Assembly: GCF_000238335.3 (NCBI RefSeq)
Contig: NZ_AHCB03000005.1
Location: 1,550,001-1,614,000 of the forward strand
Direction: 5' to 3'
Origin: Pseudoalteromonas marina
GTDB taxonomy: Bacteria; Pseudomonadota; Gammaproteobacteria; Enterobacterales; Alteromonadaceae
DNA length: 64,000 bases
A program made the position numbers and the translations under genes. The notes beneath the pieces are model-generated. The model did no database searches and was not told the origin of the DNA. It was given only the letters and a program-made list of their open reading frames with translations. Numbering within the stretch: position 1 is the first letter of the stretch; each line of letters opens with the position of its first letter. Of this stretch, positions 26,353-30,283 are shown one piece after another.

Positions 26353-26829
26353 TTATAAAATTTCTACCACTTCATATTCATGGTTTTTGCCTGCGATGGT
26401 TAGGCTTACTTCATCATCAAACTGTTTGCCTAAAAGTTGTTTGCCCAGCGGGGCTTCGGGTGTAACAACTTGAATAGTGATATTTTTTACTTCAACCGTT
26501 AAGCCGCCTGCGGCTGGGCCTAAATAAAACCATTTTTGTAGGGCGTTTTCATCTTCTAGGCAAACGAGTGAGCTTATAATCACTTTATTATGAGTGGGCT
26601 CTTTAAAAATAGTTTCAAATTGTTTAATACTTTTGTAGCAATCGTTTACGCGCTCGGCTTGGCCTTGTGCTAAATAAGCGGCTTCGAGTCCTAGGGTATC
26701 GTACTGCGTTTCTGCAACGCTTTCTTCGTGAGTTGCGGCGTCGTGCGCGGCTTTTGCTGCTTGTTTTGCGCTGTTTAATTGTGCTTCAAGTGCAAATTTA
26801 AGGTGTTCTATTACGTGGGATTTATTCAT
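26353..26829 (-). CDS. GreA/GreB-family protein
   Basis: A protein of 158 residues likely to bind RNA polymerase through the secondary channel. Residues about 8-75 make the helical coiled coil, with an acidic segment THEESVAETQYDTLG at the tip, comparable to the catalytic acidic tip of Gre factors. The C-terminal FKBP-like domain ends TPEAPLGKQLLGKQF and YEVVEIL, the usual GreA/B signature. It is neither typical GreA nor GreB in the tip sequence, so the transcript-cleavage role is inferred. It is transcribed toward the cassette-like island, with the REP-like palindrome just downstream. Confidence 0.78.
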   Translation of the reverse strand: MNKSHVIEHLKFALEAQLNSAKQAAKAAHDAATHEESVAETQYDTLGLEAAYLAQGQAERVNDCYKSIKQFETIFKEPTHNKVIISSLVCLEDENALQKWFYLGPAAGGLTVEVKNITIQVVTPEAPLGKQLLGKQFDDEVSLTIAGKNHEYEVVEIL

Positions 26830-26946: not shown

Positions 26947-27885
26947 CTAGGGCATATCGAGCAACGCTTGCGTTTCTGCATCTTGTTTTTCTTCGTAATT
27001 TTTAGCACTTAACCCTAAAAGCTCGGGTAACGTGGCGGCAATACAAATAGATGAGAACGTACCTACTACAATGCCGGTAAATAGCGCGATGGCAAAGCCT
27101 TGTAATGGCGCGCCTGCGAGGAGCCAAACACTTGCAACTGTAGCAAGCGTGGTGCCCGATGTAATAAGCGTACGTGTTAAGGTACTTTTTATGGCGTTGT
27201 TAATAATACTTGCCGGGCTAAGCGCATTATTAGATTTAACACGTAAAAGCTCGCGTACTCTATCGCCTACTATTATAGAGTCGTTAAGTGAATAACCTAT
27301 AATGGCGAGTAAACTGGCAAGTACGGTTAAATTAAATTCAATACTTAATAGCGAAAATAGCCCCAGTACCAGTAATAAATCATGCACTAGCGCAACCACA
27401 GAGCCAACAGCTAAACGCCATTCAAACCGTACTGCTAAATAAAGCATTACTGCAACCATGGCTGAAAATAGCGCTAAACAACCTTGTTCAAACAGTTCAT
27501 CACCCACTTGCGAGCCAATATACGCTGATGACAAAACCTCGGCGTTAATGTCTGCATTTTGTGTAATGGCGCTTTGCCAATCACTACTGTTTGCTGTTGA
27601 ATCGCTAGGCGCTTCGCGTAGTTGAAAGTGATTATTTCCTTGTGCGGTTAGTTCAAACTCGCCATTGTGATTTTTAGTAATAAATTGCTCAAGCTGTTTT
27701 AGCTCAACACCTTGGCTGGTGGTAAATTCTGTTAGGTAACCACCGGTAAAGTCGAGTCCAAAATTAAGCCCTTTTTGACTAAGCGTAAATACCGATAGCA
27801 GTACAAGTATGACGCTCAAAAGCATGCCCGAAAAACGCAGACGTGTACCCGCCTCGCCCTTTAAAAAAGTGTTAAGCATGTGCAT
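26947..27885 (-). CDS. secF: Protein translocase subunit SecF (second copy type)
   Basis: Inner-membrane partner of SecD that uses the ion gradient to pull proteins out of SecYEG. The 312 residues have one N-terminal helix, the motif GLNFGLDFTGGYLTEF, a periplasmic domain, and five helices with LAIIGYSLNDSIIVGDRVRELLR and TSGTTLATVASVWLLAGAPLQGFAIAL. The start overlaps the secD stop by 14 bases; ATG at 27885 or two codons later (27879, better spaced from AGGAG) is possible. It lacks the yajC/tgt neighbours of the canonical locus, which suggests a paralogous SecDF. Confidence 0.93.
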   Translation of the reverse strand: MHMLNTFLKGEAGTRLRFSGMLLSVILVLLSVFTLSQKGLNFGLDFTGGYLTEFTTSQGVELKQLEQFITKNHNGEFELTAQGNNHFQLREAPSDSTANSSDWQSAITQNADINAEVLSSAYIGSQVGDELFEQGCLALFSAMVAVMLYLAVRFEWRLAVGSVVALVHDLLLVLGLFSLLSIEFNLTVLASLLAIIGYSLNDSIIVGDRVRELLRVKSNNALSPASIINNAIKSTLTRTLITSGTTLATVASVWLLAGAPLQGFAIALFTGIVVGTFSSICIAATLPELLGLSAKNYEEKQDAETQALLDMP

Positions 27886-29710
27886 TTACTCCTGCTTTTT
27901 TAGTCATTTTTAAATATACCGTTTGGCTTAGTACTTTTGATACGTAGACACCAGTAAATACCGAGGTTATTAAGCCAAGTGCCAATGTTATGGCAAAACC
28001 TTTAACTGGGCCGTAACCTATTCCATATAAAATAAGCGCGGTGATCATGGTGGTTATATTGGCATCAAATATGGTGTTAGCGGCTTGCTTGTAACCTTCT
28101 TGAATAGCTTGATAAGCAGAGCGGCCTTTTCTACGCTCTTCTTTTATTCGCTCAAATATAATAACGTTGGTATCTACCGCCATACCAATGGTGAGTACCA
28201 GCCCGGCAATACCCGGAAGCGTTAACACAACCCCTGGTAATAACGACATTAGCCCCACAAGCGACGTTAAATTTAATAACAGCGCGACGTTTGCAATAAG
28301 CCCTAAACGGCGATACCACAGCGCCATAAAGGCAAGTGTAATACCCATACCAAGCATTAATGCGGCCAAGCCGTTAGTTATATTTTCTTGACCTAGGCTC
28401 GGCCCTATTGTTTGCTCGTGCACTATAGTTACCGGCGCAGTCAGCGAACCTGCTCGTAATAACAGGGCTAAATCGGCCGCTGCTTGTTGGCTTTTCATAT
28501 TGGTAATACTAAAACGTGAACTTAAATGCTGCGCAATATTAGCCACGTTTATAACTTCACTTTTTTTAACGGTTTCACCGTTTGCGTTTTGAGAGTACTC
28601 TGAGTAAACCGTGGCCATAGGCTTACCAATATTAGCTTTTGAAAATGCCGACATGGCATCGCCGCCTTGCCCATCTAGGCTAAGTTGAACCAGTGGCTTA
28701 CCCCAGTCGTCGCGCCCTATGTTTGCATTATTAATGTGATCGCCTGTAAAAATTGGCACAGGATCAAGTTTGATTGTTCCGCCCGATTGCATATTAAAAG
28801 TTTGGCCACCCACTTCTTTTAACTGATAAAACCCAAGTGAAGCAGTTGCACCAATAATGCGCTTAGCCTCGGTTGGGTCTTGCACACCTGGCAGCTCAAT
28901 ACGTATACGCTGTGTGCCTTGCCGCTGTGTTACAGCCTCAGTAATACCTAATTCTTCTATGCGTGAGCGAAGTGTGGTGAGTGTTTGGCTCATTACTTCT
29001 TTGTCAAAGTTGCTACGCCCTTGCTCTGAATAGCTAAACTTGGCGTTTTTAACATTGCCATTATTGGTTGTTGTAACCGCTAAATTAGCAAAGCGACTTT
29101 GAAGCTCATCTATCACTGGGTTAAGTTTTTGCACCGCGTTAGGCAGCGCATTAATTTCAAAGCCATGCCCTGTTTGCTGCGCTTTAAGGCCGTACGCTTT
29201 TTGCTTTATAATGATTGATTTAGCTTGTTGATACGCACTGGTTAATTGCTCATCAATTGCTTTATCTAAATCTACGTCGAGTACAAATAGCACGCCGCCG
29301 TTTAAATCTAGTCCCAATTTTATTGGCGATAAACCAAATTCTTGCAGCCAAATTGGGCTTGTTGCATGCTCTACAATTTTAACTTGCGTGTTTAGGTACT
29401 GCGCCTTTATAGCCGCTTGAGCTTGGGCGCTTTTACTTGGCTCGTTTAACAGAATATTTATAGATGTTTTATTATTTACCCCTTGCTCTACTTTTAAGCC
29501 TTGGCTATTTAAAAAAGTAACTAATTCATTAGTACTGGGCACAGCTTGTGTTTCGCTATGTGGTGCGTTGCTTACATGCAACCACGATTTATTAGGGTAT
29601 AAGTTGGGTAATGCGCTTATAGCTAATAAAATCAGCACAATTAGCATGGCTATGTAGCTTAATTTAAATTTAGCCATAAGTGGCTTTTGATCTTTTTTTA
29701 CACTTAACAT
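27872..29710 (-). CDS. secD: Protein translocase subunit SecD (second copy type)
   Basis: The 612 residues match E. coli SecD in length. It has one N-terminal helix (about 14-34), the conserved LGLDLNGGVLFVLDVD, the P1 periplasmic domain with RIEELGITEAVTQRQGTQRIRIELPGV, and five C-terminal helices with TIGMAVDTNVIIFERIKEERRKG, the ion-path region. AAGGA precedes the ATG. The preceding gene encodes a VemP-like arrest peptide, and the bases after its stop can pair with this Shine-Dalgarno, so translation is probably repressed until the upstream ribosome stalls. That mechanism is known for the secDF2 genes of Vibrio alginolyticus and inferred here. Confidence 0.94.
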   Translation of the reverse strand: MLSVKKDQKPLMAKFKLSYIAMLIVLILLAISALPNLYPNKSWLHVSNAPHSETQAVPSTNELVTFLNSQGLKVEQGVNNKTSINILLNEPSKSAQAQAAIKAQYLNTQVKIVEHATSPIWLQEFGLSPIKLGLDLNGGVLFVLDVDLDKAIDEQLTSAYQQAKSIIIKQKAYGLKAQQTGHGFEINALPNAVQKLNPVIDELQSRFANLAVTTTNNGNVKNAKFSYSEQGRSNFDKEVMSQTLTTLRSRIEELGITEAVTQRQGTQRIRIELPGVQDPTEAKRIIGATASLGFYQLKEVGGQTFNMQSGGTIKLDPVPIFTGDHINNANIGRDDWGKPLVQLSLDGQGGDAMSAFSKANIGKPMATVYSEYSQNANGETVKKSEVINVANIAQHLSSRFSITNMKSQQAAADLALLLRAGSLTAPVTIVHEQTIGPSLGQENITNGLAALMLGMGITLAFMALWYRRLGLIANVALLLNLTSLVGLMSLLPGVVLTLPGIAGLVLTIGMAVDTNVIIFERIKEERRKGRSAYQAIQEGYKQAANTIFDANITTMITALILYGIGYGPVKGFAITLALGLITSVFTGVYVSKVLSQTVYLKMTKKAGVNAHA

Positions 29711-29711
29711 G

Positions 29712-29821
29712 TTTTTTCCTTATCACCAGTAAATTACTGGCAACGTACTTTTTAAAAGTACAATTAATCTCAAGGCTTAAACGTAAAACGTTAAAACCTA
29801 ATAAAAATTAAATAAGAAAAA
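29712..29821 (-). promoter_or_regulatory. secD translation-control region
   Basis: On the transcript TTTTTCTTAT (29821-29812), directly after the vemP-like stop, is complementary to the secD Shine-Dalgarno stretch ATAAGGAAAAA (about 29722-29712), ten pairs with one bulged G. Between them three local hairpins (AACGT/ACGTT, GTACTTTT/AAAAGTAC, CCAGTA/TACTGG) would bring the ends together. A ribosome stalled at the end of the upstream gene would disturb the pairing and open the secD start. Confidence 0.6.
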
Positions 29822-30283
29822 TTAAGCGTGGTAGGTAGTTACTGCTTTGTAGAGTAAGTTGGCATCTTTCCAGCCACTTAAACGGGATTTTTTACTGTGA
29901 TGCACAAGCGTATACCAAGGCTGAATAGCATTTACAGCTTGGGGGCGTAAAAATATTTGCCTAACAAGGTGCTGCGCAAAAAACTCAAAAACAACATCGT
30001 ATTCTGGCTCACTTTGAACTGTGTGCAAAAAAAGTGACGCATTACTTGCTGTAAGCCTTGGCTGATGTGAGTCAAAATCGGTGTGTTGTGTTTTTTTATG
30101 CGCAGGTGCGTCTGCAGACTTTTTAGTAGGCTTTGTTTTAGTTATATCAATAGCATCTGTAAATAAAATGTGCGAACTGACAGCTGGATTCAAATTTTGT
30201 GTTACCTGCACAGCATTACTCTGCACACTAAACAGTGCAGCTAGAAGCAAAAAAGCAGTTATAAAAACACGAAATTTAAACAT
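29822..30283 (-). CDS. vemP: VemP-like secretion-monitor arrest peptide
   Basis: An exported protein of 153 residues upstream of secDF. The signal sequence is FRVFITAFLLLAALFSVQSNA. Near the C-terminus residues 133-148 read SRLSGWKDANLLYKAV, matching the R-x-S-G-W-K-x-x-N-x-x-Y-x-A pattern I recall from the arrest motif of Vibrio VemP (159 residues, also directly upstream of secDF2). VemP stalls the ribosome a few codons before its stop unless it is being exported, and the stall opens the secD2 start. Length, signal peptide, motif position (15 codons from the end) and gene order all agree. The middle part shows no likeness I can confirm. ATG start; promoter in the 94-base gap to the divergent ABC transporter gene. 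Confidence 0.8.
   Translation of the reverse strand: MFKFRVFITAFLLLAALFSVQSNAVQVTQNLNPAVSSHILFTDAIDITKTKPTKKSADAPAHKKTQHTDFDSHQPRLTASNASLFLHTVQSEPEYDVVFEFFAQHLVRQIFLRPQAVNAIQPWYTLVHHSKKSRLSGWKDANLLYKAVTTYHA

Follow-up and report, generated by a model that had tools for sequence, protein, structure and literature searches.

A VemP-type arrest peptide candidate upstream of a second secDF pair in Pseudoalteromonas marina, with relatives upstream of other genes

A small exported protein encoded directly upstream of a second secDF pair in Pseudoalteromonas marina is very probably a VemP-type monitoring substrate, the export sensor for SecDF2 in Pseudoalteromonas. Its gene, called here the uORF (upstream open reading frame), lies at 29822-30283 on the minus strand of the window, the 64,000-nucleotide stretch of contig NZ_AHCB03000005.1 (positions 1,550,001 to 1,614,000) that was analysed. 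The arrangement is like that of vemP-secD2F2 in Vibrio alginolyticus (PDB 5nwy), where an exported protein also precedes a second secDF, and the uORF most likely works like VemP because of a profile match, a kept arrest core, a low substitution ratio across the motif and an mRNA fold that is predicted to hide the ribosome site of secD2. Computation established the gene order, strong protein-level constraint on the core, conservation of the predicted masking structure and co-occurrence with secD2. The uORF nonetheless departs from Vibrio VemP in the regions that determine where the ribosome stalls and how the stall is released.

The uORF starts with ATG, encodes 153 residues and ends in ...KKSRLSGWKDANLLYKAVTTYHA; residues 1-24 (MFKFRVFITAFLLLAALFSVQSNA; 30212-30283, minus strand) form a signal peptide by inspection, and the hydrophobic N-terminus is kept in the alignment. 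After a gap of 111 nucleotides (nt) comes secD2 (27872-29710, minus strand; 612 residues), followed by secF2 (26947-27885, minus strand; 312 residues), which overlaps the secD2 end by 14 nt; both identities are clear from family searches (Pfam, NCBIfam). The genome has one other full-length SecD match, 40% identical to the window SecD, and another secDF set (G000:C6) in the order queA-tgt-yajC-secD-secF, with all five genes confirmed by family. Since this queA-tgt-yajC-linked secDF sits elsewhere in the genome, the window pair is the extra copy. An earlier reading of the letters alone (the sequence-only reading) had described a 153-residue exported protein directly upstream of secDF and pointed to a second set near yajC; frame, place and tail proved to be as described, and the yajC-linked set was found.

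The VemP-like tail of the uORF, RLSGWKDANLLYKA, contains the arrest core R134-H152 (RLSGWKDANLLYKAVTTYH; 29828-29884, minus strand), delimited by alignment, profile comparison and relatives. Residues 134-145 (RLSGWKDANLLY) carry the RxxxWKxxNxxY-like motif that is the inclusion rule for VemP-type uORFs in PMC10987492. The pattern R.SGWK..N..Y.A, seen once in the window, has a chance expectation of 2e-6 in the window's six frames and 1.5e-4 when scaled to the genome, and the whole genome has a single occurrence of the related DNA pattern GGNTGGAARGAYNNNAAY, located at the uORF; a chance motif was rejected on these grounds. The expected match to VemP around the motif was obtained with hhalign, in which a Pseudoalteromonas-only profile (A1, 19 sequences) aligned with ten VemP sequences at 94.8% (E 5e-8) over 20 columns, those of the arrest core. 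The ten come from a genus taken to be Vibrio because L196 and L207 carry the 5nwy-type core.

Within the genus the uORF protein finds matches in 67 of 108 genomes at E 1e-3, and relatives from 59 of the 67 were read. Forty of the 59 are canonical, with R...WK..N..Y and exactly 20 residues from the R to the C-terminus in all 40; the fuller pattern of the sequence-only reading is matched by 38 of them, and its claim that the motif is conserved in close relatives is borne out by R-W-K-N-Y in 40/40. All 22 loci on contigs named Pseudoalteromonas have R...WK..N..Y. The other 19 comprise two with GWQ/GWH, nine with a G-x-I-x-x-C-x-x-A-N-L core (Cys type) and eight of a separate type linked to S41 peptidase genes. 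secD2 is next downstream in 50 of 51 secDF-type loci, the remaining one running off its contig. The ratio of nonsynonymous to synonymous substitution rates (dN/dS; 21 ungapped sequences) is 0.200 for residues 1-24, 0.489 for 25-72, 0.127 for 73-131 and 0.049 for 132-152, so that the tail is the most constrained part of the uORF and the linker (0.489) nearly free. Twenty of the 41 match-less genus genomes were also examined: 13 lack an intact secD2 (best SecD match 38-40%), and the seven that have one (53-57%) all carry a divergent uORF with a Cys-type core, which in one of them lies ~670 nt upstream of secD2.

The mRNA from the uORF end to the secD2 start (29699-29845, minus strand) is predicted from folding and covariation to be structured, with a minimum free energy of -38.1 kcal/mol (z -4.13; 0/200 shuffles as low). 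Folding and alignment place a predicted anti-Shine-Dalgarno arm directly after the uORF stop codon (29812-29821, minus strand) and the predicted masked secD2 Shine-Dalgarno arm at 29713-29725 (minus strand; AAGGA at 29717-29721); in the predicted outer helices the last uORF codon, the stop and the following nucleotides pair with the secD2 Shine-Dalgarno and first codons. The consensus over 23 sequences has 35 pairs, with 97.6% of cells paired against 92.0% in shuffles, double changes in 10 pairs against 5.9 (0/500 shuffles as high for either) and a covariation score of 0.293 against 0.184 (0/500 as high), values favoured by the derivation of the structure from the same alignment. The double changes sit in the inner hairpins, and distant relatives rebuild the masking helix from other sequence, for example ACTTCCTTC/GGAAGGAAGT in L063 and TTCACTTATC/GATGAGTGAA in L076.

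On the model of VemP, the signal peptide would direct the nascent chain to the Sec translocon, and the C-terminal R-x-S-G-W-K-x-x-N-x-x-Y core would bind the exit tunnel and stall the ribosome with about Y151 in the P-site. The predicted P-site Y151 and A-site H152 are placed only by alignment to VemP Q156/F157; to judge from codon positions, a ribosome parked at these codons would lie over the first part of the anti-Shine-Dalgarno arm. A brisk export pull would release the stall, translation would end, and the mRNA would refold so that the sequence just after the uORF stop masks the secD2 ribosome-binding site. With slow export the parked ribosome would cover the masking sequence, leaving the site free, and SecD2F2 would be made. 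Stall, release by pulling force and induction are all carried over from VemP.

The sequence-only reading held that the tail follows the VemP arrest motif. As to the core R-x-S-G-W-K-x-x-N-x-x-Y-x-A this stood: VemP and the uORF share it, with the core-to-C-terminus spacing within one residue, and in both an mRNA fold is predicted to mask the ribosome site of secD2; the lengths are 153 residues in the uORF and 159 in the V. alginolyticus-type L196. It did not stand for the residues facing the peptidyl-transferase centre, which differ (uORF T149-T150-Y151/H152, VemP N154-S155-Q156/F157), and R85 is missing; the masking RNA is likewise of different sequence. The ten Vibrio VemPs are invariant at P67, R85, R139, G142, W143, K144, N147, Y150, V151, L153 and N154, and while R, G, W, K, N and Y have counterparts in the uORF, R85, V151, L153 and N154 do not. 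Tunnel contacts are made in VemP by R139, W143, K144, Y150 and N154, the last at the peptidyl-transferase centre (PMC5449182), and R85, highly conserved among VemP orthologues, acts in release control (PMC7793623). Because R85 is missing, the uORF is classed as VemP-type rather than as Vibrio VemP proper. A segment R76-Q90 (30014-30058, minus strand; alignment of 19 sequences), in which R76, N81, F85, L86 and Q90 are invariant, may by analogy with PMC11470409 be a counterpart of the VemP short hydrophobic segment; its stretch SLFL at 83-86 fits that segment as far as sequence goes, and HQP at 73-75 could match the VemP (hydrophilic)xP element, but the spacing differs.

A number of results weigh against the VemP-type reading. 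Outside the 20-residue core the profile alignment showed no similarity to Vibrio VemP; a PDB search with A1 returned the VemP chain as the second of two matches (E 0.5), behind an unrelated lipoprotein (E 0.24), and one with the single uORF sequence returned no match. At the N154 position the uORF has T, and the canonical relatives have T in 25 of 40, N in six and other residues in nine; Q156/F157 are replaced by Y/H, and no Arg that could be a counterpart of R85 follows the hydrophobic segment in the uORF sequence or in the alignment. As to the RNA, pair types (34 against 32.3; 76/500 shuffles as high) are the one of five covariation measures not above shuffles, and within group A, the canonical secDF loci, the masking helix has no double changes and an invariant Shine-Dalgarno side. 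A two-segment energy test gives the window a modest result (z -1.2). In a cross-locus pairing test the sequence at the uORF stop was paired with its own downstream gene start and ranked against those of other classes; the rank is 0.143 for the window and averages 0.17 over 19 group-A loci (10 at <=0.1), values to be taken as indications rather than independent tests, with one or few loci chosen per group and related loci within a class. Consensus scans on the uORF strand found no promoter-like site, and three terminator-like matches at 27826-27854, inside secF2.

Since the Vibrio release elements are missing, the uORF might be an arrest peptide for secDF2 that senses something other than a failing sodium-driven SecDF1, such as proton-motive force, cold or membrane stress, an alternative with perhaps a minor share of the probability. 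The loss of R85 and of the VemP residues next to the peptidyl-transferase centre is in its favour, as are the position of the short hydrophobic segment, which lies closer to the predicted stall site than the VemP segment does, by ~10 residues (counted on alignments), and the S41- and DedA-linked relatives described below, which suggest varied outputs; a sensor of SecDF work is nevertheless the simplest reading, and secD2 and the uORF co-occur (7/7 match-less genomes with secD2; 13 others without an intact one). It is improbable that the uORF is a VemP relative in decay that has lost the ability to stall, with secD2 expressed constitutively or by simple translational coupling: N154, Q156 and R85 of VemP are not found in it, but the motif dN/dS of 0.049, the spacing invariant in 40/40 and the conserved, covarying RNA structure speak otherwise. 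An ordinary exported protein with an incidental C-terminal motif is very improbable, for although residues 73-131 are also constrained (0.127), the motif has a chance of 1.5e-4 per genome, the tail is the most constrained part beside a linker at 0.489, the place before secD2 is fixed and a masking RNA is predicted.

Other systems share the logic proposed for the uORF but have other arrest motifs. uDF_RQH_Enterobacterales of Alteromonas naphthalenivorans also lies upstream of secDF2, and its arrest opens a masked ribosome site (PMC10987492), but its arrest motif is RGPP; the RAPP/RGPP (RQH) type was rejected for the uORF, which has no R-A/G-P-P. SecM (E. coli, secA) and MifM (B. subtilis, yidC2) follow the same course of stalling, unmasking, induction and release by export or insertion, with unrelated arrest motifs and target genes (PMC7897499). 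A screen of open reading frames upstream of secA, secDF and yidC kept 339 VemP-like uORFs (PMC10987492); these may already include Pseudoalteromonas, and the main text of that paper contains none of the words Pseudoalteromonas, Shewanella or Aeromonas. One literature text match of VemP with Pseudoalteromonas was traced to the author name Vempala, not to the protein.

The family extends well past the genus. Of 394 genomes taken across the order, 72 match A1, and 87, from 19 of the 114 genera sampled, match A2, a profile of the tail. A spread past the order was rejected: at class level 2 of 369 genomes match, the window's own and another from its family. The sequence-only reading, which had placed the system "outside Vibrio", was thus right as to Pseudoalteromonas and understated the spread. 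Among 69 order-level loci read, 59 lie upstream of secD, four of an S41 peptidase gene and four of a DedA-family gene, and two lack a clear target; 20 further loci divide into 15 secD, two DedA, one S41 and two without assignment (L195, L203). The downstream families are Peptidase_S41 and VTT (DedA) by Pfam. A1 contains secDF-linked proteins alone, and it was A1 that detected the S41 and DedA loci among the first 69 (E 1.4e-7 to 8e-4); searching the other way, profile A6, made from nine S41-linked proteins, finds the window uORF again (E 1.6e-13). On balance the evidence leans towards an order-wide family of exported arrest leaders of which VemP is a single branch and in which the target has changed two times or more. 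The targets besides secDF2 would be an exported S41 peptidase, found in three other genera as well as in Pseudoalteromonas species, and a membrane protein of the DedA/YqjA type, in Vibrio and, before yqjA-mzrA, in an enterobacterial family; a further branch would keep secDF2, with GWK replaced by the Cys-containing core G-[FLAS]-I-x-x-C-x-x-A-N-L-x-[YF].

Strong matches of the S41 type (E <1e-40) occur in 8 of 108 genus genomes. The S41-linked uORFs (L069, L071, L072, L075, L079, L082, L085, L088, L204) have a second hydrophobic segment and a tail [LI]W[RH][DN][SAN]N[IVL]; they lie 44-223 nt before the S41 peptidase gene, and at several the stop-codon region is predicted to pair with the S41 Shine-Dalgarno, by a 16-bp helix in L075. 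The secDF2 uORFs with the I-x-x-C-x-x-A-N-L core and without GWK are L074, L076-L078, L080, L083, L084, L086, L087 and L234-L240; the masking helix is strong in L074-L078.

In Vibrio the DedA branch is present in 7 of 148 genomes (nine matched, two of them secDF-type); its uORFs (L192, L194, L212-L218) have ~124 residues, end in GW[QH]xxNLx[FY]RFIHSR and lie 52-81 nt before the DedA gene, one being split over two frames in G915 (L214, L221). In one enterobacterial family the branch is found in 9 of 119 genomes and eight genera, with uORFs (L134, L156, L157, L159, L222-L232) that have a MRWLFA-like start and a tail GGWKxSNxxYxGxLTYH (AGWKESN in L159/L230); a yqjA-like DedA gene follows after 107-330 nt. 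Gene order at L134, L156, L157 and L159 resembles, by eye, E. coli yqjA-mzrA-yqjC-yqjD-yqjE; at L134 family searches confirm MzrA and find the fourth gene ElaB/YqjD-like at a score below the cut-off, and blastn of the L134 dedA gene against E. coli gave no match, surprising for a YqjA orthologue. The 27-residue yqiM before yqjA in E. coli, considered as a counterpart of the DedA-branch uORF, is unrelated in sequence by eye. In profile searches MzrA (L134:1579-1989) and SecD (L060:3849-5705) are weakly similar (E 4.6e-6 and 2e-6, both below cut-offs), the resemblance being to the SecD N-terminal region, a possible clue to the place of the leader before yqjA-mzrA. A search of the paper library covering DedA but not S41 returned no report of DedA as an arrest-peptide target among the matches listed and no paper that combines DedA with arrest peptides, the sole match for yqjA with stalling being an antimicrobial review.

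Eighteen genomes with S41- or DedA-linked uORFs were checked for SecD. At E 1e-40 each of the 16 non-Vibrio genomes has a single match (one of these genomes is only 88% complete), so that outside Vibrio, among the genomes checked, these targets occur only where a single secDF is present; the two Vibrio genomes have two and three matches. Mean ranks in the pairing test were 0.093 for seven S41 loci of group D (five at <=0.1), 0.11 for four other S41 loci (two), 0.164 for seven Vibrio DedA loci (three), 0.148 for seven divergent secDF loci (three), 0.295 for eight Vibrio secDF loci (five) and 0.329 for nine enterobacterial DedA loci (two, L134 and L226); the enterobacterial DedA branch is weak on this count.

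Some further observations concern the surroundings. A small protein with a GreA/GreB C-terminal domain is encoded at 26353-26829 of the window, downstream of secF2. A short stretch at G050 C26:75461-75628, in a genome otherwise without secD2, is 59% identical to SecD2 with an internal stop and looks like a decayed secD2. A second arrest-tail copy, in a short frame of L053 (4001-4574) where the contig ends, is probably an artefact of assembly. A Pfam DUF6683 match to the uORF (E 0.02) was set aside as below the family cut-off. NCBIfam has no family for the uORF, nor for V. alginolyticus-type VemP, and its silence on the former is therefore uninformative.

Among nascent chains that fold inside the ribosome tunnel and respond to export force, VemP is a leading example, and a 2024 paper still calls its operon specifically conserved among Vibrio species (PMC11470409). 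A family whose matches span 19 of the genera sampled, and in which nature has replaced residues regarded as critical beside the peptidyl-transferase centre, offers ready-made variants for structure and force experiments, and the wider family with its S41 and DedA targets is a more surprising lead than the window gene. If the S41 and DedA branches stall, the same tunnel-binding tail would have come to serve target genes that are unrelated to one another, a re-targeting invisible to a screen of open reading frames upstream of secA, secDF and yidC. Were this true, the same tail and masking RNA would read export force for non-Sec outputs such as lipid-carrier transport and envelope proteolysis.

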